Assembly: GCA_947646735.1 (NCBI GenBank)
Contig: CANTFK010000528.1
Location: 1-64,000 of the forward strand
DNA length: 64,000 nucleotides
DNA from: Peronospora farinosa
Taxonomy: Eukaryota; Oomycota; Peronosporomycetes; Peronosporales; Peronosporaceae
Direction: 5' to 3'
Below the pieces are notes generated by a model that was not told the DNA's origin, searched no databases, and was given only the letters and a program-made list of their open reading frames with translations. Each line of letters starts with the position of its first letter. The first letter of the stretch is position 1. Shown piece by piece: positions 5,463 to 51,361 of the stretch. Position numbers and translations under genes: made by a program.

Positions 5463-5669
5463 TGTTGGAAACCGCACCTACTTTAGATACAGAGAAAGTA
5501 AGCTGAAGTTGCAGTTGCAGTTGAAGAGGTAAGTTGAAGTTGAAGAAGTTAGTTTAAGAAGATTCTAGAGTGATTGTCTGAGGTAGTCATGAGTGCAGTA
5601 CAGGCAGTCCTAGATTTACCTTAAAATCAACAAGTTGTTTGTGAGTGCGTTCGAGTGCGAATTCCGTTA
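5463..5669 (+). repeat. copia 5' LTR
   Basis: 207 bp, near identical to 10869-11075. It contains an internal GAAGTTGAAGTTG-type short tandem repeat. Confidence 0.85.
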
Positions 5670-25211: not shown

Positions 25212-27582
25212 TCAGGCGGTGTCGGGTGGAGAAAACTTGCCATGGAGACGGGGAACCCCGAAAGCGGGATGCTCGTGGATGTTCTTGTGGTAAAAGATGC
25301 GCCACGGTTCGACATCATCCACCACCTGCAACGCCTCCATAATCCCCGGTTGAAAACTCTCCTGGTTGACCCTTGGGGTCCAGTAAGACAGCTGACGCGT
25401 GGGGGTAACGGGCTGGAAGAAGGGGTACAGCAGGATGTCCAAGTCACAGTGACCTGCTACCATCCCCTGCAGGACCTTCTTCAGCACTCTTATCCAAGCC
25501 TGTGTCGCCTTGGCCCGTCGTTTTTTCCTGGCGTTGTAAATGCGGGAGACGTACGCACTGCCGGAACGAAGAGCTATGGAGAAATGAAGACGGTGCCGGT
25601 CCTCCCACAGACTCTGGCGCGATGCGTCTACGTAGGCATCGTGGAGCTCCACCAGTCCAACAAACCAGCCGTTTACGGGGAACGAGAGAGGATACTCGGA
25701 CTTCGTCTGCTGCTCCCATGGGCGCGAGTTCATCAACAGCCGGAGCTGAGACTCCGTTACGAGACTATTAGTCTCGCCCAGGCGGTCCTTGGATCTCTTG
25801 TCTAAAGGGGGGGCCCGGACCCATCCACGAAGCTGGAAGGGTTATGCGGGACCACAGGTCTTTCACGCTCAATTGCGAGATCGCAAGGGGGCCTACCATA
25901 GAGACGGGCCATGGGGCAACGTCTTCGGTCTTGAACAAACTTGGCTGGGCATATCCCGGAATGGATGGGCCCCAGGCGTTGGAACCAGCGGGACCTTTGG
26001 ATGCTGGCACCCCTTGATCATCAGAGTCGAGACTCTCAGTATCGGACTCAGAAGGACCGAAAAGCTGGATGAACAGGTCGGAAGGAGGCGTGGGCGTCTT
26101 TTCCGAGCTGGAAGAAGCAGCAGGTGACGTCTGTACTTCGGGAGGAGGCTTGGCCATTGGTTTCCCAGTGGACCCCGCCGGTTTAGGAAGAGGCTTGGAC
26201 GTTGGTTTCCTAGTGGACCCCGCTGGTTTCGTTGGTTTCCCAGCAGACCCCGCCGGTTTTGGAAAAGACTTGAACGTTGGTTTCCCAGTGGACCCCGCCG
26301 GTTTTGGAAGAGGCTTGGACGTTGGTTTCCCGGTGGACCCTGCCGGTTTCGTTGGTTTCCCAGTGGACCCCGCCGGTTTCGTTGGTTTCCCAGTGGACCC
26401 CGCCGGTTTCGTTGGTTTCCCAGTGGACCCCGCCGGTTTAGGAAGAGACTTGGACGTTGGTTTCCCAGTGGACCCCGCCGGTTTAGGAAGAGACTTGGAC
26501 GTTGGTTTCCCAGTGGACCCCGCCGGTTTGGGAAGAGGCTTGACTTTTGGTCTCCCAGTGGATCCCACCGGTTTGGACTCCGTTGATGTTGGGAGAGGAC
26601 CGGACTTGGATGTCCCAGTAGATCCCACGGACGTCGAAGAAGGGCCGGATGTCGTTTTACGAGATAAGTCCACCACCTCTGGAGCGGGTTTCCCCACGGA
26701 AATCACCGGGCTACCACGACGACGAGAGGCACGTGACCGAGCCATCGCCGCTAGCAGAGACTCATCGCTGCTACTGGACTCGTCTTCAGGGGAACTTGGG
26801 GCACGGGTGGTCCGACGCTTCTTCGATGAGGAAGGGGCTGGAACTTCGGCAGCAGGAGACCGAGATCTTTTAGCCCTGGAAGGTCCTGGGACCTTAGTCT
26901 TAGGCGAGGCAGATCTATCCGCGGCGCTCCGAGCTACGGCCAGCTGTTTCTGGAGTTGGTCCCGTTGGCAGGCGACTTGCTTCACGAGAGATTTAGAGCG
27001 GGCCAGCTCATCTCGAAGTAGTGACACTTGAGATACAGTGGACCGAAGATCGGCCGTGGTGGTATCCAACTTGGCCTCCAGCTCTTCTATCTGGAGTGTG
27101 AAGCTCGTCACCGTGGCCTCATACTGGCCCCTCCAGTACCGAATCTTGGACCGAGACGCTTCAACTTCAAGCCGATAATCCTTCCGGGTGGCGAGCGCAT
27201 CTCGGTATTCCGCAATGGTTAGCTGGTCGGTTTCATGATCGCGGACGAGCTTCCGAATTCGAGCCTCGATCCGGGGAAGATCAACTTTTCCAAGTCGAAC
27301 GACCTCGTCCACGCGACTCTGCAAGTCTTGGGCCCGGCGATGCTCAGCCTGATAGGCCTGCTGGAGGGCCCTATGATTGTCAGCAAGGGTCTCCATAACT
27401 TGGGCTCGTTCCATCGCCAGCTGGATCGCTTCCCACGCCCGGGTAACACTCGCATAATCGGGGGGCTCTCCGACAAGGTCTACAGTCGGAATGACCAAGG
27501 CAGGGTCAGGTCCAGGCAGTGGAGGGGTAGACAAACGGCCAGGTGCTGGGGGTTCGTCGGAGAAAGAACTGGAAGAGGCCAC
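25212..27582 (-). pseudogene. Antisense ORF of element C (aORF-C), group 2 type
   Basis: Minus-strand ORF of about 604 codons (27582-25768), then one frame break near 25770 and a further 174 codons to 25212. The N-terminal third is a coiled coil (MERAQVMETLADNHRALQQ, IRKLVRDHETDQLTIAEYRD, LEAKLDTTTADLRSTVSQVS). A basic, serine-rich NLS-like section follows (RAKRSRSP, SSKKRRTTRAPSSPEDESSS), then about a dozen repeats of KPAGSTGKPTSKPLP. The C-terminal domain has IPGYAQPSLFKTEDVAPW, LHDAYVDASRQSLWED, YNARKKRRAKATQAW, GHCDLDILLYPFFQP and VPRLHGKFSP. It is homologous to aORF-E and aORF-G2. No in-frame ATG is seen at the N-terminus (the open frame begins GTG). No known family recognised. Confidence 0.75.
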
Positions 27583-28442
27583 TGGTAAATAAAGGGTGGG
27601 TGAGTTGGTGAATACGAAAGATCGTCAAGCACATGGACACCTACTTATATGTTAAGGAGACGGGACAAGGATGCACGGGGTCTTGCCGCAGTTCGGAAGA
27701 CCAGCGCGCAGGGGACAGCTGTGGAGAAGTGCCAGAGAAATGGGGGGCCCTTCGTAGTTATTATAATAACTGGCGGGAAAGATCTCGGTCACTCTCTTGA
27801 ATGAGTGACAGGGAGTGACCAGGGTCCCGAACTGGTCCAAGGTCCCGAGTTCGGAGAAGATACTAGGATGCCCTACACTACAGACCAAAGGACCAGTGCT
27901 GCTAGGACAGCTTAAGTTGACCCCAGGTAACAGGTGGGTCCCAGACAACAGGTGGACCCAGGTGACCGGTGGACCCCAGGCAACAGGTTGACCCAGACAA
28001 CAGGTGGACCCAGGTGACAGGTGGACCCCAGGTAGCATGTGGACTCCAGGCAACATGCGGACCCCAGGTAACAGGGGCCCAGGGGTACCAGGATACTAGG
28101 GCCCAGGGGCCTAGGGGTGCCAGGGTACGGGGCCTAGGGGTACCAGGGTGCCGGGGCCCAGGGGCCTAAGGGTACCAGGATACTAGGGCCCAGGGACCTA
28201 AGGGTACCAGGGTACCGGGGCCTAGGGGTACCAGGGTGCCGGGGCCCAGGGGCCTAAGGGTACCAGGGTACCGGGGCCCAGGGGTACCTAGGGGCACTAG
28301 GGGTACCAGGGTGCCGGGGCCCAGGGGTACCGAGGCCCAGGGGTACCGGGGCCCAATGTCCGAGGGTGCAGAACCGGTACACAGAATATCGAAGATTACA
28401 GAAAGTACAGGGTACCAAGGAGCCAGTCCTTCCTCCAAGAGT
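27583..28442 (-). other. Leader of aORF-C with GC-rich tandem repeats
   Basis: No gene. 27900-28080 is built of CCCAGGTGACAGGTGGA-like units. 28075-28370 is built of about 24-bp GGGGCCTAGGGGTACCAGGGTGCC-like units rich in GGTACC and CCTAGG. Parts recur inverted at 60040-60380 beside element E, so this is element sequence. It lies between the aORF start and the 3' LTR and may hold its promoter. Confidence 0.65.
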
Positions 28443-29071
28443 CGGCACGTGGCACTTTCCAGATCAAAGGGTTAGGGTTAGGCAAGAAAAGCATACAGAG
28501 AATAAGATAAATAAACACACTCGAATTTGCATTACACGTGGCAGCTTTAAGCGCGCCTCCTAAGCTTCTCCGTCGCTACACCTCTTCCGGGCGGGATACC
28601 CTTTGGCCCCCCGACGTCCAGCAGGTGTTAGACGGCTCAAGCAACGCAAGTTGAACCTCAGGATAGTTGGCCTGAGGTGTCAAGTAAGTGTCAACACTCT
28701 ACGACCCGCTACAGGAAGTGGTTTCCCTACGGGGAAGAACACAAAGGGGTCCAAGGACCAAGAACAGTCAGCCACCAAAGGGGTACATAGTACCAGGTGC
28801 ATCGCTATCGACTAAGTCGATTGAGCCCAAGAGACCCGGTCCCAAGTAAAGTATATCCACTCGGGGACCACCAAGTCCAAGTCTTATACAAAGACCAAGT
28901 TTAAGTCTTCTACGTCAACCGAGGAGCAAGACCAGCCAAGCCGACGGGTACACAAGGTGAGACCCAAGGCCAATACGACACGGTATCGGGGTACCCCCTC
29001 CGTAAGTCGGCAGTCCGGCGCTGTGTGTGTTTGTGGATCTCCTACGTTGTTTGAGAATCCACTCCACCATA
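28443..29071 (+). repeat. Element C 3' LTR (type L1)
   Basis: About 629 bp, homologous in reverse to 47957-48588 and 59297-59927. The internal CGGGGTACCCCCTCCG motif is present, and the end is CTCCACCATA. It is followed by a (TA)n stretch at 29070-29090. Confidence 0.85.
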
Positions 29072-29427
29072 TATATATATATATATATAACCAATCAGTA
29101 GTTAAGTACATATTTAGTTATAATTAATTAAATATAGCTCAGTCTTGAATTTACTTAAACGAACACACCACGCATGAGAAGTTGAGATCCTTCTGCGTGA
29201 CGTCGGTGTTCTAAGTGTTAAGAAGTTCGTTGCACTCTCGCTTAAGCGAGAGGCAACTGGTGGTACGACTGCTTAAGCGAGAGGCAACTGGTGGTACGAC
29301 TGCTTAAGCAGTCGACCAACCTCCCAACCACCCTCGCACGCGAAGGTAAGACGGTATAACCGCTTCCTCGCTTGTGCATAAGGTGTGTGCTCGTAGTACG
29401 AGGCAACTTCGTAGAAGTGCCCGTCTA
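29072..29427. other. Spacer with TA microsatellite and small duplication
   Basis: No gene seen. (TA)n at the start, AT-rich sequence, then a directly repeated segment at 29250-29310 (GCTTAAGCGAGAGGCAACTG twice) with palindromes CTCGCTTAAGCGAG and GACTGCTTAAGCAGTC. Confidence 0.5.
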
Positions 29428-30577
29428 CACTTGAACTTCGCTACACAACTCTCTTCGACGGGGGACCAAAGTTCATCCCTTCCCGGAACAGTGAGTAATA
29501 TAGAACAAGTCCCTCTTGGGTGACGGAGTCGTGCCACGTAGATCGCAAATTGAGTAGTATTTAATATAGTCCTGTCCTTTTAACTCCTTAACTCTATCCT
29601 TGCCTGAAGCTCTGATTCCTTGCGTCGACTGGTCTGATCTTTGTATTAACTGGTCAGGCGTGGCTGAACCCCGAGGGGCCGAGGTCGACCGATGAGGGAC
29701 CGGGTCGACCGATAAAGGACCGTGTCGACCAATGAGGGATCCAGGTCGACCAATGAGGGACCTGGTTGACCAATGAGGGACCCGGGTCGACCAATGAGGG
29801 ACCCAGGTCTACCGATGAGGGACCGGGTCGATCGATGAAGGACCGGGTCGACCAATGAGGGATCCAGGTCGACCAATGAGGGATCTGGTCGACCAATGAG
29901 GGACCCAGGTCTACCGATGAGGGACCCGGGTCGACCAATGAGGGACCCAGGTCTACCGATGAGGGACCGGGTCGATCGATGGAGGACCGGGTCGACCAAT
30001 GAGGGATCCAGGTCGACCAATGAGGGACCTGGTCGACCAAGGAGGGACCCAGGTCTACCGATGAGGGACCTGGTCGACCAATGAGGGACCCAGGTCTACC
30101 GACGAGGGACCGGGTCGACCAATGAGGGACCCAGGTCTACCGACGAGGGACCGGGTCGACCAATGAGAGACTCAGGTCAACCAACGAGGGACCGGGTCGA
30201 CCGATGAGGGACCAGGTCGACCGACGAGGGGCCCATGTCTACCGATGAGGGACCGGGTCGACCAATGAGGGACCGGGTCTACCGATGAGGAGCCGAGGTC
30301 TACCGATGAGGGACCTGTTCGACCAATGATGGACCGGGTCGACCAATGAGGGGCATGGTCGACTCCCTTCGGTACCGGTTAAACAGTACCCTGGTAATGA
30401 ACTCTCCTTTGTTTGTCTTTCACATTCTCAGCCAACTGTCGCTTCACTGTGAGGTTACCTTTATCTCCGGTCCCTTCTATCTGGTGCGTGGTCCCTTCTC
30501 CCTAGTCCACGGCCCCTTGCCCTTTCAATCCAACTGGCCCCTGGGTTCTTCACAATTTAGGAAAGCACTTCACCACA
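29428..30577 (-). repeat. Partial type L2 LTR with minisatellite
   Basis: Matches element G2's LTR from the segment CACTTGAACTTCGCTACACA to the terminal CACTTCACCACA (30577). It contains an expanded minisatellite at about 29683-30350. The 5' part of the LTR is missing, and its end joins integrase coding sequence of element G4a at 30578. Confidence 0.8.
29683..30350. repeat. 20-bp minisatellite GAGGGACCGGGTCGACCAAT
   Basis: More than 30 imperfect 20-bp units, many with the palindrome GTCGAC. Shorter arrays of the same unit sit at 35965-36220 and 47120-47330 within the L2 LTRs. Reading frames through it (repeated RSTRSLIGRPGSL) are artefacts of the repeat. Confidence 0.9.
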
Positions 30578-33389: not shown

Positions 33390-35256
33390 AAAATGGATCT
33401 CAAGTTAGCACCAGGTGAATCACGGGGATATTGGAAATATCATGCCCCAGGAAAATGGTTCAAGCAAGCCAAGGCAACGGGCAAAATCAACAATGAAAAG
33501 GCGATTATGTTGTTTGATTCTGGAGCCGAAGTCTCAATCGTCGACACCACCTTTGCTCGTAAGGTAGGATGTGTCATTGACGAGAGTTAGAAGCAAGAAT
33601 GTGTTGGGATTGGTGAGAACACATATGACGGACGGTCGTACAAGAATCAAGATCACGCTGAATGGATCATTAGTCTATTATTTCGATGCTTGGGTAGGAG
33701 ATCAAGTAGGTCAAGACGCGATCCTAGGAATGGATTTTATGGTCCCAGCTGGAATACGCCTGGATTTAGCCAATGGAACACTTTGTCTGCCCGACGAGGT
33801 CAGAATACTTTTAAATGGACGAAGACCTCCGAATCGGGCGACCATACAAGCGATCACAGTTACAGATCACATGTGGTGATCCCAGTGGGTAAATCGACCA
33901 AAGTGAAGATCGGAGTTAGTCCTCCTAAAGCCAAGATCTGGGTAAGGCGCGATCGGAAGTGGGTACCTACAGTAACTACGGGACCAGGTCAGATCAAGTA
34001 TCTACAGCTAACTAATGTCAGCGATCAAGAAGTGACTTTAAGTCATGGATCACCATTAGGTTGGTGGATGGTCGCTGATATGATACCTCGGTCCCCAGGA
34101 TATGTCTCGGTGGGTTCGCGTCGGTATAACGAATGGCAGACATTAGCGTTCGAAGCGACAACGGATCGAGAAGAAGAACTACTGGAAGAATATACTGGAC
34201 CGCTAGTGGATCATCCTTCATACCCTACACCGAAGAGGATCTTAACACGCTCAAAAGAGGAAGCAGAAGAAAGGACTACGGAAACGGTGAAACTCACGAC
34301 ACGATTCAATGATGAACGCGATGCGATAAGAGAAATCGGTGGCAACAATGTAGAAGATCTGTTGATCGAAGATGAAAGTGAACAAGTAGCGCAATCTTCA
34401 TGGGTAATCAATGCGATCAGAGGGATTTCAACTGTCGATCACGCGCAAGGGCCGTGGGGTGAAGAAAATTACACTGACAATAACTGCACACAGGAATGTA
34501 TGGAACGCGATCCGACAATTAATGACCGCGATCTGGCCGATCTGGTAATCAATGACCCCGAGGACCCCGATCCGGTAATCACTAATCGCGAGCTTGCCGA
34601 TCCGGTAGTTAATGACAGCGATCTGGCCGATCCGACAATCACTGATAGAGATCTGGCCGATCCGACAATCACTGACGGCGATCTGGCCGATCCGGTAATT
34701 AATGACCGCGATCCGGCCCATATGGGTCGTGATCTGCGAGAACAAGAGTAAGACAATGATACTACGACTATCAGCGACGAATTTATTCTAGCGGAGGAAG
34801 TGTAAAGGTTAAGCCTGAAGACTCGATGTATTATCACGAGAGTGGTGAATTGTATGCCGAAGACGTGGATCAGCATATGGCTGTCTTGCCTGAGATTGTG
34901 TCATCCACCGAAGAAGTTACAATTGATGATATCCAAGTGGGCGATCCGGGAGTTCCTCTAACCAAGGACCAAGAAGGTCTTCGGCAATTGATTTGGGCGA
35001 ACCTACACTTACTCATGGGCAAAGGAAATGCGCTTCCTCCTGCAGCTCGATTTGGGCGAACCTACACTTACTCATCGGCAAAGGAAATGCGCTTCCTCCT
35101 GCAGCTCGAGGGGCAGTATGTGACATTGATGTTGGTGAAGCAAACCCGATCGCGCAACGAGTACGACCGGTCGCTCCCAAATTTTGCGAGAAGTTAGCTG
35201 ACTTGATCAAAGGATTACTATCAGCCAGGATTATCCAGCCGTCGACATCACCATGG
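33390..35256 (+). pseudogene. Element G4b protease region to RT start, broken
   Basis: Protease section GESRGYWKYHAPGKWFKQ, LFDSGAEVSIVDTTFARK, then a stop near 33588 and frame changes, then AILGMDFMVPAGIRLDLANGT and PGYVSVGSRRYNEW. A repeated acidic linker follows (NDRDLADPVI-type units, 34510-34730). IDDIQVGDPGVPLTKDQEG, QLIWANLHLLMGKGNALPP and the RT entry region IIQPSTSPW end at 35256, where G2's LTR starts. A 59-bp direct tandem duplication (34990-35048, 35049-35107) adds a further frame break. Confidence 0.8.
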
Positions 35257-36414
35257 TGTGGTGGAGTGGGTTCTCAAAATTGTATGATGAAACCCCAAAC
35301 CACTCACTGTGCCGGACTACCGACTGTCGGAGGGGGTACCCCGATGCCGCGTATGAACCTTCTCTCACCTTGTGTACCCGTCGGCTGGCGGGTTGCACTC
35401 TTCGGAGGACTTGGTGACGATGTAGATGTCTGCCTTGAGGGAGGTATACCTGGGGGGCCTCGAGTGGATATGCTTCACTCGGTGGGCCGGTAGGTGGCCA
35501 CTCGATCGACCTTGTCGAAAGTGGGCTTAGAGCCAAATTCTTCAGGGGCGCTTGTCGTCCCTGGCCTTTTCCTTCTTGTTTCAGGGGTATTAACCACCTG
35601 ACCTTTACTTTTCTCCCGGACCTTGAGGTGAGGGAGACCGCTTCCGATAGCGGGTCTTGGGGGTGTTTCTACTCGAACGAGCTCACAGGCCAAATATATC
35701 CTGGAGCTCTATTCACCCTTGAACTTCGCTACACAACTGTCTTCGACGGGGGACCAAAGTTCATCCCTTCCCGGATTAGTGAGTAACTTAGAGCAAGTTC
35801 CTCTTGGGTGACGGAGTCGTGCCACGTAGATCGCAAATTTAGTAGTATTTAATATAGTCCTGTCCTTTTAACTCCTTTACTCTATCCTTGCCTGAAGCTC
35901 TGATTCCTTGCGTCGACTGGTCTGATCCTTGTATTAACTGGTCCGGAGTCGCTGAACCCCGAGGGGCCGAGGTCGACCGATGAAGGACCGGGTCGACCAA
36001 TGAGGGACCCAGGTCAACCAACGAGGGACCGGGTCGACCTATGAGGGACCGGGTCGACCAACGAGGGACTGGGTCGACCGACGAGGGACCAGGTCTACCA
36101 ATGAGGGACCCAGGTCTACCAATGAGGGACCGAGTCGACCAACGAGGGACCCAGGTCGACCGATGAGGGACCCGGGTCGACCAACGAGGGGCCAGGTCGA
36201 TCAATGAGCGGCCATGATCAACTCCCTTCGGTACCGGTTAACCGGTACCCTGATACTGATTTTCTTCGGCGGATCCTGCGGATTGTCCTCCATTAACGGT
36301 CGCTCCCCTTCGAGGCCCCTGTCTCTCTGGTCCCCTGTCCCTGACCCACGGCCTATACTCCGCATCCAACTGGAGTCTGGGACCTCCACATCACAAAATT
36401 AGCACTTCACCACA
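35257..36414 (-). repeat. G2 3' LTR (type L2)
   Basis: 1158 bp, plus-strand reading TGTGGTGGAG...CTTCACCACA. It carries the conserved CGGAGGGGGTACCCCGAT motif near 35330 and the minisatellite at 35965-36220. Homologous to 46411-47520; the length difference lies mainly in the minisatellite. Confidence 0.88.
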
Positions 36415-36460: not shown

Positions 36461-38422
36461 ATGCCTTCACTTCCTTCGTCACGTAGGTCCTTCATTGTCC
36501 CCTTTGTAGCCCCTCCACCTCTAACTCGTGTCTGTCCAGCCATGTCTTCCCCTGGTTCTGATCCACCGTCTGCTGACCCACCGTCCGCTGATCCACCGTC
36601 TGAAGAGCCGACCTCGGTCTTCCCAGCGCCTTCAATCGCCCCTGGTTTTAACCCCTCATCTGCTGGCCCACTGTCCGCTGACCCACCGTCTGAAGAGCCG
36701 ACTTCAATCGCCGTCGCGCCTTCGGTTGCCTCTCCATGTAGAGAGGCGTCCTTGGCCGACCTTCCTGGGCCGGTGTCTTCGCCGTTGAGTGCTGCTGAAA
36801 CTGTTGTCGTTCACAGCTCGCCTGTTTCCACCGCTTTGCCTCCTGCCGAGACAGCAGCTTCTCCTGTCACGCCGACCCCCATGGTTGACCGTCCGTCTTC
36901 CGCACCCGTCAACGTACGGGCAGCTCTGCGGGAATTGCAAGCTCTCGCGGACGCCCATTCCCGCCGCATCGAAGACTGCGAGGGTCGGCTAGGTGTCCTT
37001 CCCCCTTCGGCCGCCTTGTTGGCCACTCGTTGTGAGCGGTTGGAGGAGGCACTGCGCGACAAGTCCCGGCTGGTGGCCCAACTTCGCGAAGCTCTCCAGC
37101 GCTAGACTGCACTGGTGGACCGTCTGAGATGGAAGGTCGACCACATCCGAAGCCGGTACTCGCTTCTCGCCGCAGAGCTCGACCATGTCGACTTCTCTGA
37201 CGGGCCACCTCCGGGACCAGCTACTCCTTCGACAGCTTCGCCCCCGGCCGCATGTTCCCCTTCACGGCCGGCGAAAGCTCTTGGTAAACGGTCCCGGCGG
37301 CCGTCACCCCGGGTACCCGCCAAAGCCCCCAAGCTTCCGAAGCCCGACGCTTCTGCGATGCCACCGTCGGCGGTCTCTGGTGGTCGTTCCCCTGTCGTGC
37401 TTGAGTCTTCGGACGACGACCTCAGCGACGACAGCGAGACCCTTCGGGCGGCTCTGGCCAAGTCTCGTTCTGCTAGTCGGCGCCCTGCCAGTGCGAACCC
37501 TGTACGTCTTCCGTCGACGTCCACTCCTCCATCGAGGACCCCTTCGGCTACCGGTCTCTCGTTGAAACGGGCGATGTTCGGGACATCGGACTCGGAGACC
37601 GAGTCGTCTGCGGAGAAAAACAAGAGTGCGCCTCCTGTCGCGGACAAAACTTCGCCCCTTCTGGCCGACTCCAGCCTGCTTCCCAGAGACGCCATGATCC
37701 CCGGATACATACCTTTTCCGCCGCGGAAGTGGCACCTTGGCCGGTCGACCTGGCCAATTCGTGGTGCATTGTTACAATTGTCTTTCACAGACTTGGTCGA
37801 CCAGCTGGATCTACCTTGGGGTTGGTTTGTCCCTCCGGACGGAAACCTCGACCGCCCTCCCAAATGGAAGAGGTCGTTGGTGAACCCTCCAATGATCCAG
37901 AGATTGCTCGCGGCGGAACCTTGGGTGGAAGCTCGTGTTCCCATGCAGCCCGTGTCCTTCCGACCTGTTTGCTGGTTCGCCCAGTTGGCAGCGGCCTACA
38001 TCCAGTTTGACGAAGAGCATAGTCAAGCTCTTTGGGAGGCGACCCACTGCTTGTGGATCTCCAAGGACCAAGCGCGAGCGAACTCTTTCCTCGCGTCCTA
38101 CTACAACGCGCGGAAGAAGCGTCGGAGTCGGGCAACTCGAGCTTGGCGGGAGGTGGTCGACCTCATCTTCATTGGGATGAGCAAGGGCCACTGCGATCTC
38201 GACATTTTCCTGGACCCCCTCTTCCGTCATCTTCCTCGAACCCGCCGTGTGGTTTATTGGTTCCCTGGTCGTGAAGAGGGGTCGGACCCGGTCGACCTGC
38301 TTGAGGCCCTTCGGGTGTCGGATTCCGCGTGGCCGTGGCTCACCCAGTATCGTTTGTCTTCTGTGCCCCATCCTGGCGCTCTAGTTCCACGCCTCAAAGG
38401 CAAGTTTGGGCCATCCGTTTAG
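36461..38422 (+). pseudogene. Antisense ORF of element G2 (aORF-G2), one stop
   Basis: A single frame from ATG 36461 to 38422, interrupted only by TAG at 37103-37105. The N-terminus has SADPPSEEPTS repeats. A coiled coil follows (VRAALRELQALADAHSRRIED, CERLEEALRDKSRLVAQLREAL), then SR/KR-rich linkers (ALGKRSRRPSPR, ALAKSRSASRRP). The conserved C-terminal domain has MIPGYIPFPPRKW, RGALLQLSFTDLVDQL, SQALWEATHCLW, YYNARKKRRSRATRAW, GHCDLDIFLDPLFRHL and VPRLKGKFGP. It starts 47 bp inside the 3' LTR and converges with pol, whose chromodomain ends at 38731. Same C-terminal domain as aORF-C and aORF-E. Product unknown. Confidence 0.8.
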
Positions 38423-38730: not shown

Positions 38731-41700
38731 CTAGAAGTCCCGGAGTAAGGCTCCGCAATTCAGATCCACATCGTTCACCCACGAGGGGTCAGGGTGTCTC
38801 TTCCATTGCACGAGGAAATCTCGTTGTTGCCTCCCATACCGAGTCTTTTTGCCTGTACGACTCTCTGAAATTTCTTCGACTTCATACTCGCCCTCTTCCA
38901 ATTCCCGCACCCAGCTGTCTTCTGGTAACAGACATTCATCGAAGTCGACTCGATCTGTTCCATCCACTTTCAGCTCGCTATTAGGTCGATCGGGGAACTC
39001 TCTGACGGGCTTGAGCTTGGAGATGTGCACAATTGGGAATAGTCTGTATTCTGTACCTCGTAACTCCAGACGTACTGCATGATCTCCGACTAACTCCTGG
39101 ACTCGGAACGGTCCGTGCCATAGGTGGGCCAATTTTTTGGCGTACCCCTCCTTCACTCGGTCTAAGTATAGCCATACCCGGGCCCCTGGCTGAATTTCGT
39201 GGCCGACTACCCCTTCATTTTGTGCTTGCACCCGAGCCTGACTAGCCGCCCGTAAATTCTCGTTGACTTGGTCTTTTGCTCGCTGATAGTGACTCTGAAT
39301 CCGATATCTCCATCTCCGAGGTCCTGATTCTCGACGTCGAGTGTTCACCACCGGTAACATAGTCTCAAGAGTGGTCCTAGCATCCCATCCATGTACCAGA
39401 TAGAACGGTGTTTCCTCCCGTACTCTGTCTTGAGCCGTGTTTAACGCGAACGTTAATCGTTCCGCGTATTCTCTCCAGTCTCGCTGTCCCGCGTCGGCTA
39501 CGTACATCTTGAGCGATCTCGTTAGAGTCTGGACTATTCTCTCCGCAGTGCCGTTCGCTTGAGGTCGGTAGGCCATGGTCGCTCTCTGACGTTGACCCAC
39601 CATACGACTGAACGCTCGGAAGAAGTCCGACATAAACCTCGGCTCCCGATCGTGACGGATCATCTCACTGGCACCAAAACGGCGGAAAACGCATTCTTCA
39701 TATCCCTCAGCTACTGTCTGGGCTGTCCGTGACGCACTTGCTTTAGCCATCACATAACCTGTGAACAGGTCGACCCAGATCAGTAGTTCCGTATTTCCTA
39801 TATACGACTTGAAGAGAGATGGTATGTGGTCCATCGCGATAATTTGGAAGGGGTACGTCGCTTCAACATTCCCCGGAGACTTCCCTTGTAAAGTGGGTCT
39901 CCCTTTCCCAGTCTCACAATCCATGCACTGACCCACATATTTCTGAACACTCCGGAACAGACCCCTCCAATGAAAATATCGTCGGATCCGATGATAAGTA
40001 CGCCCGATCCCCTGATGGCCGCCTTCCAAACTCGTATGATAATGATGGAGGACGTCGGCTTGGAGACTCTCAGGTATCATCAATCTGGCAGTTATGTCTC
40101 GGTCGTCTCCCTTGATTCTCTGGCCGGGGCAGTACACCGCCAGTCCCTCTTCACTTATCTCGTAATCCTCCGACATTTTGCTGCAGGTTCTGGCCGATTC
40201 CACCGACAGTTCATTCCAGTCTCCTTGCAAATATGCCTTCAACTCGCGTATCCAGCTCTACTCTTCTTGCGCATCTCGGATCCTGTCCATCCGGAGTTGT
40301 TGTACCACATCTTCGTGCATGACCTTTCCCGATATTTTGACGGGGAACCGTGACCTCGTCACCGCGAATACCTTGACCGACTGACCCCGGTCTCTAGGGA
40401 CCAACACCTCTGGCAGCCGATTGATTGCTTCTAGACCTGGCCACTCTCCTCTCGGTATCGACTCGACCCCTTGCTGCTGATGTAAAGCCGCACTGGCCAA
40501 CTGGTCTGCGCTCTGATTCCAGTCTCGTTTCACATGTAAGACTGCATGGGTGGGCCACGACAGGAGCCTACTCAACCCCTTGGCCCGCAACGGGGATAGA
40601 CCTGAAGCTTTGCATTCAATCTCTCCACGCATCTGTCTTATAACCAGATTGGAGTCTCCACAAATAATCAAACGCCATCTCTCCATTGGCTCCAACAGGT
40701 CAAAACCCAGTAACATGCCCTCATATTCAGCTTCATTCACCGTAGGCTTGTCGAGATATTTCGATGCAGCTGCAACTATAGTCCATGCAGGGAGTCTCCA
40801 CACAATAGCGCTGCAAGCACCTCCCCCTTGTTTCACCCGGGCCGACCCATCGAAACTCATCACGTACAGTTCTTCATTTAGTTCCACTGTGGGCGTCGGT
40901 AGGTCGACCACTTGCCTGGATTGCTTCTTGGGATCAATTGACGCCAGAATTGAGTCCACATTCTCTCGAGGCGTGATGCTGGCTGCTAACACCCCCAGTA
41001 CCTGGTCCTCGCCTTTCTTGCATTTCACAATCTCCAAAGTCCACTGTGACAACAGAGCGGCCCAGTTTCCTAAGCGACCTTGCAACCCCGAAGACTTCAC
41101 TAGCCATGGTAGTGTAGAATGCCTCGTCAGAACCTTGAGAGGTCGGGTGACCAACATCGTGAAACAAGTTTCCAATATCCGTAACAACGCCAGCACTTCC
41201 TTTTCTACTGTGCTATAGTTCACCTCGTTTGACTTGAGGGTTCGGTTCGTAAACATTACCGGCATGTACATGCCGTCGTAATTTTGCACCAACGACGCCG
41301 AGATAGCCCAATCACTTGCGTAGACAATGATGACCGCCTCTCTAGCCGGGTCGAAATGTCGTAGGATGGGCGCCGTAGCAATCTCGTTCTTGAGCATGGC
41401 AAACGCTACTTGTACCTTCGACCATTTTTCTTCGTCGTCTTCCTGGGCCGCCACTTCCTCGTTAGCCTTCAATTTGCACCTCCAAGCGTGAAAATCCACC
41501 TCTCTCAGTTCGTAAAGGATCGACGCGTATATGGCATAATCTTCGATGTACCTGCTGTAGTAATTTAGGATTCCTAGAAAGGACTGCATAGCCTTCAGCG
41601 TTGTCGGTAGAGGTAGGTCGACCAAAGACTGAAGATCTTTTGGGTGGGCCTCTAGTCCCCCTTTGGAAACTCGATGTCCAAGATACTCGACCTTCCGACA

Positions 41701-43875
41701 TCCCCACGTACTCTTGACGGCAATGACCGAAAAATTCCAATAGTCACACACGTCTAGCAGCCGCTCCACTTTCTGGTATAATACGTCCCACGATTCGGCC
41801 GGAACAAGTATATCGTCAATGTATGATCGTCGACCCAATACAGAGAGGCCCGATTTTGCATCGGGTTCCCCTGTTGCGAACAAATCCTCTGTTTCCTCTG
41901 TGGCCGCCCCTGGCGAAATCCGTAGGAATCCATATAACGCATTATCCAACAACCTTTGATATATCTGAGGCGCATTCTTAAGCCCAAAAGGCATCCGAAG
42001 CCATTCAAATAATCTTAGTGGAGTAACGAAAGCTGAGATTAGTCTCGCCCTTTCGGTCATACTGACGACCCAAAAACCACTCGCCATATCAAGGGAACAA
42101 TACCATAAAGCCGTGTCCAAATCTTCCAGTAATTCGTTAATCAACGGCATCGGGTATACCATGAGCTGGGTGAGATCATTCACCAACCGATAGTCGATAC
42201 ATAATCGAATATCGACCCCATTCTTCTTCACGATAATTACAATTGGGCTGGACCATGGCGAGGTGGAAGGCTGAATGATCTTTGCTGATAAAAGTCCCTT
42301 GATCAGGTCGGCTAGCTTCTCTCTGAATTGAGGGGATACCTTCCGTACGCGTTGCGCGATCGGTCTTGCGTTCCCCACATCGATATCGCATATCGCTCCT
42401 CGGGCGGCCGGGGGTAAGGCGTTACCTTTGCCCATCAGCAGATGTCGTTTCTTCCATATTATTTGTCGCAACCGGTCCACCTCTTCGGGAGTGTTCCCAT
42501 CTGGATCTGGAATCTGTATATCTTCTAACGCAATGCCTTCGGATGAGGGGTCCACTTCCGGTACGACCGCCCACCCTGGCCTTATGTCCTCGGCCCAAAG
42601 TTCTCTACTCTCGAAAGAACACACCTGGTCATCTGCCTGTAACAAGTCTACCGGTTTGACTTCCTTCTCATTGGTGGTGGTCACTGTATGTAGATCTTCT
42701 TCAAATACACTCCGATTTTGGGCGGTCCCCTCCTGCCAATTCACCCTCTCTTCGCACAGTTGTTCTTCACTGTCGGGTACCGGTTGGTGCGTTATATTCA
42801 TCATTGGGGTTGGGGCCTGCGGTCGCTGTAAGATGTGTGACGGAGTATTATACTCTGGTCTCTCCACTAGTGGCCCCTCTTCCTCTTCCGTTGGGTCGAC
42901 CTGATGGTCGACTTGGTCGGTGGTAAATTCATAAGCCAGATTTAGCCATTCCGCATATCTTCGAGAGCCTACCGAGACAAACCCTGGCGTTCTCGGAACT
43001 TGCTCCCTAGTCAACCACATACCTACCTTGGTATCTTCATGCAATGTTAAGGGGCGAGGGCTGACATTGCTTATCTTCAAAATCGGTCGACGTCCTATCC
43101 CTTGTATCATGGTGGTCACCCATCGTTCACCCCTCGTGACCCACAATTTCCACTGTTCTGAGGTCGACCTTTTGAGAGGCACTTCCGTACATCCTCCAAC
43201 GGATATCTGTACATACCGACCCAATTTCACATCCGATACTCGCGTATTATACAGTGTCCTTCGCCCAGTCAACTGTACCCTGACCTCATCGGGGAGGCAG
43301 AGAGTTCCGTCGGCCAAGTCTAATCGGATACCGGCTGGAACCATGAAGTCCATCCCCAAAACTGCATCTTGGCCTACCATAGGGCCTACCCACACCTTAA
43401 AGATGTACACCAAGTTCCCATTCAGAGTGACCTTGATGCAAGTGCGTCCCTCCGTGGTGTATACGGCTTCCCCAATACCAATACATTCTTGTCGTTCACT
43501 TTCATCAATTTGGCAGCCTACCTTACGAGCAAAGGCGATATCGAGAATGGATATCTTGGCACCAGTATCGAACAACAAATTTGCATGGTCGTTGTTGACC
43601 TTTCCAGAGGCTTTCGCTTGCCTGAACCATTTAGTAGGGGCGTGGTATTTCCAGTAACCCCTAGACTCGCCTGGCAATAAGTACAACTCCATTACTGAAC
43701 TTTCTCGAGCAAAACTATTAGGTTCATTCAAAGAAGCAACATGGACCACAGGGTAATTTCCAATCTTCGATATATTTTCAATCTTAACTGGAATACCCGT
43801 CCCCTCCTTGGGCTGTTTCTCCACATATGCAAAGATGCAACAATTAGAACGCTCGGCTCGTACCAGATTCAAACC
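38731..43875 (-). pseudogene. G2 pol: protease-RT-RNase H-aRNase H-integrase-chromodomain
   Basis: About 1,715 codons in one frame with one TAG at 40260-40258, between the second RNase H and integrase. Order: protease LLFDTGAKISILDIAFARK near residue 100; RT with SPIVIIVKKNGVDIRLCIDY, CSLDMASGFWVV, MPFGLKNAPQIYQ and YIDDIL near residue 683; first RNase H with NRTLKSNEVNYSTVEKE; second archaeal/plant-type RNase H SFDGSARVKQGGGACSAIV, NEAEYEGMLLG, CGDSNLVIRQMRG; integrase HHYHTSLEGGHQ, CMDCETGKG, MDHIPSLFKS, HDREPRFMSDFF, QANGTAERIVQ; chromodomain VEEISESRTGKKTRYGR, FLVQWKRHPDPSW. It lies in the -1 frame relative to gag and has no ATG at its start. Confidence 0.92.
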
Positions 43876-43886
43876 TGGCGAGCGTC

Positions 43887-46410
43887 CTAATTTGCCATCT
43901 TCTCGAGTTTCTCCGGGAAAATTCCTGCATGCTTTGCCGGGTTATACCATTGACGGAACAAATTGTAGAACTCCTCCATCTGGCACTTCCCAATCTCGTG
44001 AATCTCTCCACAACCCCGGCATACAAACAGGCAGCGGTCAGACGGGTGACCTTTCCTTCCACAGCGGTCGCAGGTCAATCTTTTCCAGCAATTCAGATCT
44101 CCATGTTTCTTGGACCCGCAATAAGCACATCTCGTGTTTGGGGTCGCTGATGATGGGCCGGGTCGCTGGTCTACCGCCTGGCGATGTTGGTCGGCCTCCC
44201 TAGTCGGTAGATTCTTTGAGAACCACCTCACACCTGGTTCCCTCCCTGCTTCCTTCTCCATAAGGTAGACTCGTCTTAGATCTCCCTCATTCTCCGAGGA
44301 GTCTGGACTGGAATCTTCAGAGCTCGAGTCTTCCAGGGGCGTCCGTACTGCATGTATGGAGCGGCGGTTCATATCTCTCGGCCTGTCTGGTAGTGCCGGT
44401 GCCTTCTGACGAAACTTGTTTGATCCAAACAGCATCTTGCCTAGTCTTGCCTTCGTCCGCTGACATGCTGTCAATACTTCCGCCAATTCTTCTACATCCG
44501 CCAGACGCAGCATAGTCAACTTGTCTGCTAGCTCTGGGTCGTCCACCGTCAAAATGTAGTGATCGACATGATCCTTCTGAATCTTGGGCGACCCATCCTT
44601 AATCTCCATCTTCGCCCTGAGTCCAAGCACATTCAGGCGGTACAGATAATCCAGCAGGGTCTCTTCCGACCTTTTCTTCGCATGGTAATACTGACGGGCG
44701 ACAGGTACCCCCGTGCCACAGAACCGAATCATGAATTCTTGCATTAGGTCCTTCCAGTTTCCTCGGACTGAGCGACCCAGTTGACGATACCAATTCTGTG
44801 CCGGCCCAGTCAGCAAACCTCCAAAAACAAGACATCGTTCGTCATCTGGTGCTTGGTCTCTTATAAATGCTGTCTTGACCGTCGATACCCAGCTGCGCGC
44901 TCTGTCTTCGTCTTGGTCTCTTCCATGAAATTCTTTAAGATCCGAGGTCGCCGAGAGTTTGATGCAAGGGACCATACTTAGTATCTGTCCCAACGCTGCG
45001 TTCGCCATCATCGACTGAGGTCCCCTCAAATCCATGTTGTTAGGGTCGAACTCACAGGAACCGACGAATTCCATATCGACGTCGGTCATCGTGTGGCCTC
45101 TTGGCATTTGTATGCCTGGATGCTGGTCATGGTGAGCGTTCGCCCTTTGCGCCTCTGGTCTTCCTCCTGCTGCATTCCCGTTAGGGTGTGCCCGCGGTAC
45201 TTGGCGTTCATTCAAAAATCTTGCCATCGACGCGTCGAAGAGGGTCTGCAGATTACCTACCGGGTAGGTAGGCCCTTCCCTTCAGCATCTTCGTCACGGG
45301 GCAGAGCAAATTCCAACTTTTTTCCTTGCTGATTTCCCATTGGCTGAAAATCGGAATGATTTTCATTCTTGCCACGCGTCGCCGTTTCAAGACCATTTGA
45401 CTCCTGCTCCGCGCTGCGCGCTCGGGCCTGGAGTAGCGCCGCCCCAGTTGGGCCTAGGGGCATCCTAGTGACCGATCCAGTCGAGGACGATCCTGGGGAC
45501 CACGGAGCTGCTGCCATATAATCGCTTGACGTTAGGTGTTGGGATGGGCCTTGATTCGCCCCTGGGTGGCCGGCGGCTCCGTCATGTGAGGATACACCGT
45601 GATGTCTTGAAGCGTCATCTGGCTGTCCTTATCCCGTGTTCGTGTGTTTGTCGTCAGAGGTGGGTGTTCCTTTGTTGGCGTGGTACCGACTAGGATTGAC
45701 AGACGCTTGTGTATATGCTCTAACGCTTTTGTGATTCTTTCGAGTCCCAGGGACAGCAGGTCGTCCGGGTCGAACCGACCTGCGACCATGTTCGCTTCAC
45801 GAAGCATGGTGACCAGCGCTGTGATCGCGTCCGTGACGGTTTGCAGCCGTGGTAGGGTCGACACCGGCCCAGTGAGTTGACCCAGCTGCCGGATCTCCAG
45901 GATCTTCGCGACGGGGTCGCTCTCCAGGAACGCGTTCAGCTTGCGTTGGTGGTAGGCCCTCGTGACATCAGCGTCTGTCCATGACGCCAGTCCTGCCTTC
46001 TCGGGGCCTATCGACTTGGTGTTTCCGGGTGCCTTCATCCGGAACTTGTTCGGCTTGGATTGCGCGATCTTGTTTTGTTGTTTTTTTGGGGACCTTAGCC
46101 TCTCGGTTTTCACCGTCGGCTGATGGTCCTCTGGATCATGATAGGCGTCATGACCCAAGGTGTCCTCAACGAGGACATAGGGAGGGTATTTAGGTTTTTC
46201 TTCAATGAATTCAACCTCGACCATGTTGACCGGGCCCCTCCCAAGGCCCGGTCGGTCCTTCGACCCTTTGTTTGTTTCTTCTTGAGTCACTGGCTATCGG
46301 TCTTCCAGTGACTCTTCGGTCTTGTGCTCCTTCTTGACATGAACATCTTTATCATCTTGGGACTCGCGGTGAAATCCCGCGTCTTCCGAAGATCCGGGCA
46401 CGCGTACCAT
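43887..46410 (-). pseudogene. G2 gag with three zinc knuckles, frame-broken
   Basis: Starts at ATG 46410-46408, inside the primer-binding site and directly after the LTR (MVRVPGSSEDAGF...). Sections are 46290-45532, 45517-45257 and an intact 446-codon frame 45227-43887. The capsid-like region has IKLSATSDLKEFHGRDQDED, GLLTGPAQNWYRQLGR and ARQYYHAKKRSEETLLDYLY. Three consecutive knuckles follow: CAYCGSKKHGDLNC, CDRCGRKGHPSDRC and CRGCGEIHEIGKC. The stop TAG at 43889-43887 is followed by an inverted repeat, and pol is in the -1 frame. Confidence 0.88.
46390..46409 (-). promoter_or_regulatory. G2 primer-binding site overlapping gag start
   Basis: TGGTACGCGTGCCCGGATC follows the LTR end CACCACA after a single A. 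Its complement ends in CCA, as for a tRNA 3' end. The A plus TG forms the gag ATG. Confidence 0.6.
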
Positions 46411-47520
46411 TGTGGTGGAGTGGGTTCTCAAAACTGTATGATGAGACCCCAAACCACTCACTGTGCCGGACTGCCGACTGTCGGAGGGGGTACCCCGATG
46501 CCGCGTATGAACCTTCTCTCACCTTGTGTACCCGTCGGCTGGCGGGTTGCACTCTTCGGAGGACTTGGTGACGATGTAGATGTCTGCCTTGAGGGAGGTA
46601 GACCTGGGGGGCCTCGAGTGGATATGCTTCACTCTGTGGGCCGGTAGGTGGCCACTCGATCGACCTTGTCGAGAGTGGACTTAGAGCCAAATTCTTCAGG
46701 GGCGCTTGTCGTCCCTGGCCTTTTCCTTCTGTTTCAGGGGTATTAACCACCTGACCTTTACGTTGCTCCCGGACCTTGAGGTGAGAGAGACCGCTTCCGA
46801 TTGCGGGTCTTGAGGGGTGTTGCTACTCGAACGAGCTCACAGGCCAAATATATCCTGGAGATCTATTCGCACTTGAACTTCACTACACAACTGTCTTCGA
46901 CGGGGGGCCAAAAATATATCCCTTCCCGGAACAGTGAGTAGCTTAGAGCAAGTTCCTCTTGGGTGACGGAGTCGTGCCACGTAGATCGCAAATTTAGTAG
47001 TATTTAATATAGTCCTACCCTTTTAACTCCTTTACTCTATCCTTGCCTGAAGCTCTGATTCCTTGTGTCGACTGGTCTGATCCTTGTATTAACTGGTCCG
47101 GAGTCGCTGAACCCCGAGGGGCCGAAGTCGACCGACGAGGGATCCAGGGCGGCCGATGAAGGACCCAGGTCTACCAACGAGGGACCAAATTGACCAACGA
47201 GGGACCGGGTCTACCGATGAGGGACCAAGTCAACCGACGAGGGACCGGGTCGACCAACGAGGGACCCAGGTTGACCGATGAGGGAACCGGGTCTACCAAC
47301 GAGGGGCCAGGTCGATCAATGAGCGGCCATGATCAACTCCCTTCGGTACCGGTTAACCGGTACCTTGATACTGATTTTTCTTCGGTGAGTCCTGCACTTT
47401 GTTCTCCGCCAACGGTCGCTCCCCTTCGAGGCCCCTCTCTTTTCCCTGACCCATGGTCTATACTCCGACTCCAACTAAATTCTAGGGGTCCCCATATCGC
47501 AAAAACAGCACTTCACCACA
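46411..47520 (-). repeat. G2 5' LTR (type L2)
   Basis: 1110 bp, homologous to 35257-36414, with minisatellite at 47120-47330. Confidence 0.88.
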
Positions 47521-47956: not shown

Positions 47957-48588
47957 TGTGGTGGAGCGGATTCTCAAACAACGTAGGAGAACCACAAAAA
48001 CACACAGCGCCGGACTGCCGACTTACGGAGGGGGTACCCCGATACCGTGTCGCGTCAACCTTGGGTCTCACCTTGTGTACCCGTCGGCTTGGCTGGTCTT
48101 GCTCCTCGGTTGACGCATAAGACTTAAAGACTTGGTCTTTGTATAGGACTTGGACTTGGTGGTCCCCGAGTGGATATACTTCAATTGGGACCGGGTTTCT
48201 TCAGCTCAATCGACTTAGTCGAGAGCGATGCACCTGGTACTGCGTACCCCTTTTGTGGCTGACTGTTCTTGGTCCTTGGACCCCTTTGTGTTCTTCCCCG
48301 TAGGGAAACCGCTTCCTGTAGCGGGTCGTAGAGTCTTGACACTTACTTGACACCTCAGGCCAACTATTCTGAGGTTCAACTTGCGTTGCTTGAGCCGTCT
48401 AACACCTGCTGGACGTCGGGAGGCCAAAGGGTATCCCGCCCGGAAGAGGTGAAGCGACGGAGAAGCTTAGAAGGGGCGCTTAAAGCTGCCACGTGTAATG
48501 CAAATTCGAGTTTGTTTATTTACCTTATTCTCTGTATGCTTTTCTTGCCTAACCTTCACCCTTTAATCTAGATAGTGCCCCGTGTCGA
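47957..48588 (-). repeat. Element E 3' LTR (type L1)
   Basis: 632 bp; plus-strand reading TGTGGTGGAGCGG...CCCCGTGTCG. Homologous to 59297-59927 and, inverted, to 28443-29071. Confidence 0.88.
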
Positions 48589-49019
48589 CTCTCGGAAGAA
48601 GAACTGGCTCCTTATTACCTTTACTTTCTGTAATCTTCGAAATTCCATGTACCGATTCTGCACCCTCGGACATTGGACCCCTGGACCCCTGTACCCCTGG
48701 GCCCCTGTACCCCTGGGCCTCTGGAACCTGTTTCCGGGACCTGGGGCCTGTGCTGACTCCGCACGTCTGGGTCCTTATATTCTTAATACGGCGGGATCTG
48801 GTGTATGGTTGTAAATCCGCGAGGCCGGGTCGTGGTCACTCCCTCGGGGAAGTGACCAGAAATTATCTTTCTCTCTGTTCCATTTCCCTAAAACTCCAAC
48901 TTTCCCTGGCACTTTACCACAGTTGTCCCCTGCGCGCTGGTCTTTCGAACTGCGGTAAGACCACGTGCACCCTTGTCCAAACTATTTGAATTAACAGTAA
49001 GTGATCCTACGTCGTTTGG
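48589..49019 (+). other. Leader of aORF-E
   Basis: No gene. It has CCCCTGGGCCCCTGTACC repeats near 48670-48725. 48810-48990 is similar to the inverse of the C leader (gag-distal GGTCACTCCCT..., TGTCCCCTGCGCGCTGG). Confidence 0.5.
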
Positions 49020-51361
49020 GTGGTTGCGTTCACCAACTCACACGTCTTGTATCCGTTAGTGACTTCTCGTAATCTTTTCACCGGGTTCCAAGCACCTGAC
49101 CGTTGGCCTTTTCCCGAGCTTCCTGTACCTGACCCTGACGAGGTCGCCCCGACCTTGGACCTTATTGGGGAGTCCCCCAATTATCTGGAGGTATCTCAAG
49201 CTTGGGAAGTTTTACGTGTCGCGGTGGAACGGGCCCAGTCCATGGAGACCCTCGCTGAGGAACACAGGGTCCTCACACGGGCCTACCAGATGGAACATCG
49301 CCGGACCGCGGAATTACAGCGTCGCGTAGACGACCTCACGGAATCCGAGGTGACCCATGTGCCCCGGATACAGTCTTGGGTCCGGAATCTGGTCCACGAG
49401 CATGAAGTGGACCAGCTGGCCATCGCCGAGTACCGGGATGCACTCGCCCAACGGGTGGACAATGTTCGGGAAGTGGAAGCATCCCGATTCCAGATCAAGT
49501 ACTGGAAGGACCAGTACAACGAGGCTGTCGAAAATTCTTCGGCTGAGATTCGGTCGCTTGAGTCCAAGTTGGACGCACTTCGCAGTCCTCAAGAACTGTC
49601 CAAACAAGTGTTGGTACTCCAGAAGGAGGTTGCCAACTACAAGAGCCGCGTGAAGACCCTCCTCCGGGAACGTGACCAGCTGCAGAAGCAGCTAACAGTT
49701 GCTCGAGGCACGGCGGCAAAATCGACTCCAGCCACGACCAAGGCCCGAAGTTCCAGAACGACGAAAAGGTCACGTTCGCCTTCAGCCAAGGCTTGGTCGC
49801 CCCTTAAGCCGAAGAAGCGAAAAGCCAATCGTGCCCCGGGGTCATCTGAGGCCGAGGATAGCAGTAGTGACGACTCGATGTTCGCCGCCATGGACAGATC
49901 GCGGGCTTCCAGTCGTCGCTCCGGCCCTGTACCCTTTACGTCAGAGGTCGGCCCCGAGGTCATAGACCTATCGACTAAGGCCAAGTCCAAGGTTCCCACT
50001 CCGCCTTAAAGGCCCCCATCCCCTCGCACCTGCCACGCAGCGTCTCGGGCGTCAAGGAACAAGAAGGCTCGAACGACGTACTCCGACGAGTTCTTAGAAA
50101 TGTTTGGACCAGACTCTGAAACTGAGAGTGACGAGTCTAGCCATGCTAAGCGTAAGCCACCAGCCAAAAGTTCCCGCCGCAAGGGCCCCGCCGGCAAGGG
50201 TCCAGTACCACCCAAGGGATCCAGCGGCAAGGGTCCAGTACCACCCAAGGGTTCCAGCAGCAAGGGTTTCGCACCATCCTCCAAGGGTTCCAGCAGCAAG
50301 GGTTTCGCACCATCCTCCAAGGGTTCCAGCGGCAAGGGTTCCAGCGGCAAGGGTCCAGCACCATCCTCCAAGGGTTCCAGCGGCAAGGGTCCCGCACCAC
50401 CATCCAAGGGTTCCAACCGCAAGGGTCCCGCACCACCATCCAAGGGTTCCAGCCGCAAGGGTCCTGCACCACCACCCAAAGGTTCCAGCAGCGAGGATCC
50501 TGCATCCACATCTGAGGGTCCCAGCCGCGAGGATCCGGTACCAACACCTGAGGGTCCTGCCAGCCAGGGTCCCACCCATGATGATTTCCCCGACCGTAAC
50601 ATCCACGGCTACTCCCTTCCTGGTTATGCGACGCCCAGCACGTTCGCCCCAGGAAGACGTTGCCCCCTGGTCGATTTCCCAGGTAGGGGCCCTCGTTATC
50701 ACCCAGCTGACGCCAGAGGAACTTTGGTCCAAGGTATCGCTTCCACTGTCTTGGGTGGGTGCCTCTGAAGACCAGAAGCCCCGAAGTCCCCCAATCTGGA
50801 GCGAAGCCCTCATGAAGGACTCTCAACTTCAGCTTCTGATGGACTCATGTCCTTGGGCCCAGGGGGTCGTGACCGTAACCCCTATTTCTTTTCTGGTGTC
50901 CGGCTGGTTCAGTGACCTCGTGAAGCTCCATGATACGTATGTCGATGCGTCACGCCAGAGTCTATGGGAAGACCGACACCGACTTCCACTTTTCTCCGAA
51001 CTCCGTACAAAGAGCCAATACGCCTCTCGGCTGTCCAATGCGAGGAAGAAACGGCGGGCCAAGGCGGTGAGGGCTTGGATGGACGTACTTGATAAGGTCC
51101 TGGAAGGGATGAAGGCCGGTCACTGTGACCTCGACATTCTTCTTGACCCCTACTTCCAGCCCATGATCCCGACCCGTCAGCTGACCGTCTGGTACCCAAT
51201 CGTGACCACGGAGGATCCTCAGTTGTAATTGTTGAGAGCTTTGCAGACCGCAGACGACACTGCCCCCTGTCGCGTGTTCTATCGCAAGAACATTCAGGAA
51301 CACCCCGCCTTCCAGGTCCCTCGTCTCTCCGGCAAATTTCGCCCGGACCGATACATAAAAT
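49020..51361 (+). pseudogene. Antisense ORF of element E (aORF-E)
   Basis: Frame 49020-50009 (coiled coil: VERAQSMETLAEEHRVLTRAY, LVHEHEVDQLAIAEYRDAL, SLESKLDALRSPQELSKQV; basic KRSRSPSAK; STEAEDSSSDDS-like acidic serine tract) ends at a TAA near 50007 and resumes in the same frame. A linker of SSGKGPAPPSKG-type repeats (50190-50560) follows, then a frame break near 50645. The C-terminal domain reads EDVAPWSISQVG, YVDASRQSLWEDRHRL, NARKKRRAKAVRAWMDVL, GHCDLDILLDPYFQP, then a TAA at 51226, then EHPAFQVPRLSGKFRPD. No N-terminal ATG in frame (starts GTG). Clear homologue of aORF-C. Confidence 0.75.

Follow-up and report, generated by a model that had tools for sequence, protein, structure and literature searches.

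An antisense accessory gene under frame-specific constraint before the 3' LTR of Chronos-like retrotransposons in Peronospora farinosa

Long open frames lie antisense to the pol genes of several LTR retrotransposons in a 64,000-nucleotide stretch of Peronospora farinosa DNA (contig CANTFK010000528.1, hereafter the window), and the question raised by this locus is whether such a frame (aORF) encodes a protein and what that protein might do for its element. One host, the G2 element, runs on the minus strand, with gag followed by pol between two LTRs (Table 1). A second RNase H (aRNH) follows the first in pol, an RVT_3 match behind RT_RNaseH with E 2.7e-9 in G2 pol and 2.5e-11 in the sister copy L025. 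The integrase is followed by a chromodomain (PF00385), whose match passes the cut-off in the pol of L025 (E 2.9e-6) and is weak in the window copy (E 0.019). Two catalytic aspartates of the first RNase H of G2 pol appear to be replaced, judging from the translation read against the canonical positions. Chronos, an oomycete Ty3 group of the Peronosporales, is described with the layout RT, degenerate RNase H, extra RNase H, integrase and chromodomain (PMC5348765), and the predicted domain order of the aORF host elements is that of this published group. Chronos is numerous in some plant-pathogenic oomycetes, with 1555 tabulated for P. infestans (Table 1 of PMC5348765).

Table 1. Features of the aORF-bearing elements in the window
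Feature	Position	Strand	Basis or remark
G2 element 3' LTR	35250..36414	-	ends CCACA; adjoins polypurine tract; 89% identical to 46406-47520
20/41-bp tandem array with GGTCGACC	35961..36208	.	in G2 3' LTR, upstream of aORF
aORF-G2, antisense accessory ORF, broken copy	36461..38422	+	TAG in frame at 37103-37105; out-of-frame stretch ~37690-37790
aORF-G2 predicted coiled-coil segment	36911..37180	+	read from sequence; weak coiled-coil family matches
aORF-G2 basic KRxR and acidic SxxxAA(L/M)xxSRxxxRR motifs	37286..37490	+	sequence comparison
aORF-G2 conserved C-terminal domain (NARKKRRSRA..AW, GHCDLDI(L/F)LDP, PRLxGKF)	37694..38419	+	comparison and structure model
G2 pol	38731..43941	-	protease, RT, RNase H, second RNase H, integrase, chromodomain
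G2 gag region, two frames	43887..46293	-	frames and Pfam scan
G2 element 5' LTR	46406..47520	-	LTR pairing, 89% identity with 35250-36414
aORF-C, broken	25212..27624	-	open 27624-25768; C-terminal domain in other frame, 25796-25356
C element 3' LTR	27720..29069	+	similarity to E LTR; no partner LTR located
aORF-E, broken	49005..51361	+	interrupted by a stop at 50007-50009, then shifts frame; C-terminal domain 50674-51225 onwards
E element 3' LTR	47957..48921	-	97.5% identity with 59297-59903 over 607 aligned bp; inner end judged by eye

Elsewhere the window contains a G2-like LTR (29427-30400) whose tandem array has about 17 units of 41 bp, joined to an integrase frame like that of a fourth lineage, F4. 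Its left end (1-5600) is occupied by a retroelement whose RT has a weak Pfam match and whose flanks carry 14-bp repeat arrays, followed by a Ty1/copia element at 5712-10565.

The first-pass annotation of the window had listed each of its three antisense ORFs under a single range. None is one open frame: in-frame stops or frame changes occur in each, so that aORF-G2, aORF-C and aORF-E are all broken copies. The displaced stretch of aORF-G2 is out of frame relative to protein P0001 and the other copies, and comparison with the reference copy L028 shows two indels not divisible by 3. The position assigned to the aORF, antisense between chromodomain and 3' LTR, was borne out, as pol lies downstream and convergent in 21 of 22 G2 loci picked by aORF match, the sequence of the remaining one (L045) being too short to score. 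In G2 the first ATG stands about 45 nt inward of the 3' LTR, convergent with pol, which makes the LTR the nearest place for an aORF promoter. A promoter scan with an oomycete initiator consensus did no better than background. Of its 16 bases, at best 10-12 matched upstream of the aORF in the 21 G2 copies that have the anchor word (one of the 22 lacks it), while the best site in E matched 11 and that in C 10; 255 background windows gave 9-14. The conserved N-terminal segment has no preceding in-frame ATG in five C copies (L021-L024, L051), where the first Met is residue 70, nor in eight E copies (L009-L013, L015, L017, L019). Donor-like (GTAAGT/GTAGGT) and acceptor-like (TTACCAG/CGTTAG) words occur upstream of the C and E aORFs, whose translation may possibly begin at a codon other than AUG or on a leader spliced on from the LTR.

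Read from N- to C-terminus, the protein consists of a predicted coil, a KRxR motif, an acidic SxxxAA(L/M)xxSRxxxRR motif, a repeat linker, the motif FGxSxSxxES and a domain of about 250 residues. Two of these linear motifs are additions to the first-pass annotation: the acidic residues followed by SxxxAA(L/M)xxSRxxxRR (with variants), and FGxSxSxxES. The architecture claimed there stands across families for the basic/serine section, the variable linker and the C-terminal signature, while the coil is read from sequence and gave only weak matches to coiled-coil families. The signature itself is shared in a looser form than claimed, as the fourth lineage reads RERKQRRSRSGPxW. KRxR motifs are present in the lineages read and in both Phytophthora proteins described below. 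The linkers are tandem peptide repeats unrelated from family to family, and their length between fixed points varies even among three young copies, at 126, 144 and 162 residues; with a young-family query, 13 coil matches and nine C-terminal matches were identical at 100%. A structure model of the C-terminal domain is all helical (pLDDT 71.8).

The protein had been said to belong to no known family, and Pfam, PDB-sequence and fold searches returned zero relatives. Scans of 14 aORF members gave no significant Pfam family of any kind; PF04195 (TRP28) was absent among families at E<=1, and Pfam scans gave no bZIP family. Two candidate identities were dropped. The acidic motif was considered as a ubiquitin-interacting motif, but the loose pattern also matches pol and the C-terminal domain; an env-like protein would be in sense orientation with transmembrane segments, and the constrained frame is the antisense one.

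How widely is this gene distributed? At least 108 matches to the G2-type aORF, many of them stop-free, are present in the 46.85-Mb assembly, and a search with aORF-E gave at least 150 (150 scored of 453 candidates), including the C, G2 and fourth types. The window families and two further lineages share its position and layout. An integrase search revealed a younger element group with long pol frames, in which a full aORF is present in two of three loci read; of 145 genome matches to the C-terminal domain of this young family, 15 belong to frames of 905-973 aa that no stop interrupts. Among named proteins, the nearest come from Peronospora effusa and P. farinosa. Similarly built relatives are known from Phytophthora nicotianae (P0011, with coil, KRAR motif and C-terminal domain, the acidic/SR motif not being recognised) and P. 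palmivora (P0018, with coil, KRSR, the acidic/SR motif and part of the C-terminal domain), and further relatives in P. matthiolae and environmental sources. In one environmental protein (P0008, 586 aa), RT and RNase H are fused in one frame to the aORF C-terminal domain; since the aORF is normally antisense to pol, this points to a chimera or an inversion.

Whether the frame is maintained as protein was addressed by pairwise Nei-Gojobori comparison of 22 G2 loci (20 picked by aORF score, L045 and the window copy). L041 was left out of the later alignments, A6 is without the poorly aligned P0014, P0015 and P0017, and both A5 and A6 are without P0008, P0012 and P0018. Across 231 pairs the aORF frame has a pN/pS of 0.42 and 23 stops in 22 copies, against 0.50-1.21 and 190-476 stops for each of the other five frames over the same DNA; G2 pol, in 21 loci, has 0.29, and two of its wrong frames 1.10 and 1.39. 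Counted from a later start codon over 210 pairs, the whole aORF gives 0.41 (codon bootstrap interval 0.35-0.49), the C-terminal domain 0.26 (0.18-0.39), the coil 0.41 (0.25-0.64), the middle 0.47 (0.35-0.66) and the weakly constrained first 115 codons 0.78 (0.50-1.25), all with intervals that ignore kinship because pairs share copies. In the other families, aORF pN/pS is 0.46 in E (66 pairs, 12 copies; other frames 0.62-1.44) and 0.37 in C (10 pairs, five copies; other frames 0.48-1.88), where one 100-codon segment stands at 2.77 on very few changes. The first-pass annotation had named a dN/dS near 1 as the outcome that would speak against its reading of a selected protein; the ratio lies below 1 and only the first 115 codons are without clear constraint. 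Constraint is specific to one frame, and the flanking parts are constrained while the linker changes. A selected accessory protein almost certainly exists.

Among the newest copies the aORF is less constrained than pol: the 27 pairs with the most similar pol give a ratio of 0.63 (0.45-0.88) for the aORF and 0.28 for pol. Eight of 22 loci have an aORF with neither stop nor frameshift, as against one of 21 for the longer pol (indels counted relative to L028), a comparison that favours the aORF because the loci were picked by aORF score. A 397-aa sense-strand frame opposite the aORF (L025:909-2099, same place elsewhere) is open in many G2 loci and was considered as the selected frame; it was rejected on its 190 stops in 22 copies over the whole aORF, on its higher ratio of 0.50, and on L045, where the minus strand holds no frame as long as 200 aa. 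We read its openness as mirroring the aORF.

Comparison between families separates the age of the gene from its rate of change. C and E have a dS of 1.12 in the integrase, 1.20 in the aORF C-terminal domain and 1.15 in the coil, with dN/dS of 0.04, 0.26 and 0.37 respectively; most other comparisons were saturated. For this pair, aORF and pol have thus been diverging over the same span of time, the aORF faster yet under constraint. Identity between families is 76-90% for the integrase and 34-62% for the aORF C-terminal domain, a rate of divergence expected of a factor that tracks a changing target; within F4 the C-terminal domains are 57-61% identical. C pairs with E, and the F4 copies group together, in both integrase and aORF. 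The nearest relatives of G2 are C and E in the integrase (81-85%) and F4 in the aORF (38-41%), a discordance that may reflect recombination between families.

These results bear on the two weakest explanations. That only antisense RNA matters, as dsRNA or siRNA with an incidental frame, would suit the convergent arrangement, and antisense RNA regulation has been raised for plant elements (PMC7264820), but frame-specific constraint and a dN/dS of 0.26-0.37 at dS above 1 leave it next to no credibility. Capture of a host gene as cargo would agree with the single predicted genes in Phytophthora; against it, several diverged families share one position, dS between C and E equals that of the integrase, the genome matches are repeated, and no host gene was found within the sequences searched, so that we regard it as very improbable.

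Five loci of the youngest group (L058, L060, L061, L062 and L063) retain the coil and have no C-terminal match. No break interrupts the alignment of L058 with L062 where the domain is missing (96.8% identity, 1575 columns), nor that of L060 with L063 (95.7%, 2754 columns), and three further pairings among these loci align end to end at 86-92% with more gaps; the unbroken alignments imply that one or more deletions were copied, with segmental duplication as an alternative. The integrases of all five lie in open frames of 856-1937 aa. The C-terminal domain thus appears dispensable in cis: it would be either dispensable or supplied in trans, and its loss in a multiplied lineage fits supply in trans.

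A candidate target in DNA is suggested by the G2 LTR array. Where 1.3 occurrences of the palindrome GGTCGACC would be expected, the window has 37; the G2 element and the G2-like LTR at 29427-30400 account for 36 of them, and the word is the most over-represented among G2 internal 8-mers seen at least five times. Variation at nine coding copies is lower than in matched windows (mean 0.0255 versus 0.044-0.052; P 0.011, 0.042 and 0.012 with three controls). Several facts count against a special role: five of the coding copies share one frame phase and encode Val-Asp, kinship links the G2 copies, and the genome as a whole is rich in the word, with 4283 occurrences where its reversed form has 1228. 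The LTRs of C and E also contain tandem arrays, built of units other than that of G2, and the words of these LTRs do not recur inside the C and E elements. We treat GGTCGACC as a putative aORF target and a lead only. On genome contig C3 (531-7937), copies of the word spaced by 41 bp form clusters that recur about every 720 bp, which looks like an LTR array turned satellite.

The aORF protein probably acts on the element itself, in the nucleus. Beyond the observed gene, its position, its selection, its modular conservation, the G2 motif enrichment and the multiplied copies without the C-terminal domain, we propose a model resembling the action of VANC, in which an accessory gene provides a nuclear, trans-acting factor for LTR chromatin that relieves or tunes silencing; as a whole it is tentative, and we give it somewhat less than an even chance. 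A promoter within the 3' LTR or next to it would drive the aORF in the direction opposite to gag-pol, and the aORF product would multimerise through the coiled coil and enter the nucleus. There the helical C-terminal domain and basic segments may act in trans on the chromatin of the element, probably by engaging family-specific tandem LTR motifs (in G2, the palindrome GGTCGACC), and silencing of the element's own family would be relieved or tuned, as by VANC, whatever the kinship between the two may be. A multiplied lineage with long pol frames and no C-terminal domain weighs against the model, as the domain may simply be dispensable. The narrower proposal, that the protein is a sequence-specific anti-silencing factor co-evolving with the LTR palindromes of its own family, a VANC-like counter-defence that oomycete retrotransposons evolved on their own and, after the extra RNase H, one more trait reached separately by Chronos and plant Tat, is in our judgement unlikely.

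Two other functions deserve consideration beside this VANC-like model. A replication or transport factor, binding element RNA or the pre-integration complex for nuclear import or export in the manner of Rev or Vpr, is doubtful, although it retains a modest share of likelihood: the basic ARKKRRSR helix and SR-like stretches would suit it, and the C-terminal domain is constrained as strongly as pol, but the integrase evolves far more slowly than the aORF, enrichment of a DNA palindrome is left unexplained, and copies without the domain have multiplied, which supply in trans would allow. Rather improbable, too, is a negative regulator. HBZ of HTLV-1 is an antisense product that dampens sense transcription, and an LTR-driven antisense nuclear protein could similarly limit copy number or host damage. 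Coil and basic motifs agree with such a role, as does the lineage that has long pol frames but has lost the C-terminal domain, a loss that might befall a brake, and strand and place are those of retroviral antisense genes (PMC11963269); yet Pfam scans gave no bZIP family, and a brake should be readily lost, yet 15 young frames are open.

How does the aORF compare with systems already described? The protein was rightly called undescribed, but its kind was not new, as antisense accessory ORFs are recognised at this position in Ty3 elements (PMC7264820, PMC11963269). The aORF encodes a real, selected accessory protein of an apparently new sequence family at a position where such genes are known. 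For Chronos, the figure legend names ORFs 1 and 2 only, so that the aORF is an extra, and the word 'antisense' has no occurrence in the main text of that paper (PMC5348765). Searches of the open-licence literature turned up no paper describing this accessory protein, or any antisense ORF in the LTR elements of oomycetes.

Parallels exist in plants. Tat/Retand elements carry antisense ORFs with TRP28 (PF04195) likewise between pol and 3' LTR, together with an extra RNase H; Retand, however, is not a chromovirus, and TRP28 is said to be confined to flowering plants (PMC11963269). The antisense ORFs of Grande (GENE23), RIRE2 and PvRetro13 have the same position in plant elements likened to ours by description, and GENE23 is reported to be nuclear with its own promoter; Boty of Botrytis, a fungal and thus non-plant case likened in the same way, has an antisense ORF before its 3' LTR (PMC7264820). 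HBZ and other antisense retroviral proteins are encoded by antisense genes of LTR elements (PMC11963269), with a nuclear regulator proposed, whereas the aORF lacks a bZIP match.

With antisense genes before the 3' LTR in Chronos as well as Tat, a second lineage is at hand in which to test what such genes are for, and near-identical open copies together with a natural lineage without the C-terminal domain provide ready test material. The extra RNase H is thought to have been gained independently by plant Tat and oomycete Chronos. VANC of VANDAL elements shares with the aORF conserved domains around variable regions of tandem peptides, and has family-specific tandem motifs in noncoding DNA (PMC5735166), a case that for the aORF is clear in G2 only. 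VANC belongs to Arabidopsis DNA transposons, and its binding and demethylation are experimental (PMC5735166), whereas for the aORF protein both are proposals. Should the aORF protein counter silencing, VANC would have a counterpart encoded by a retrotransposon.
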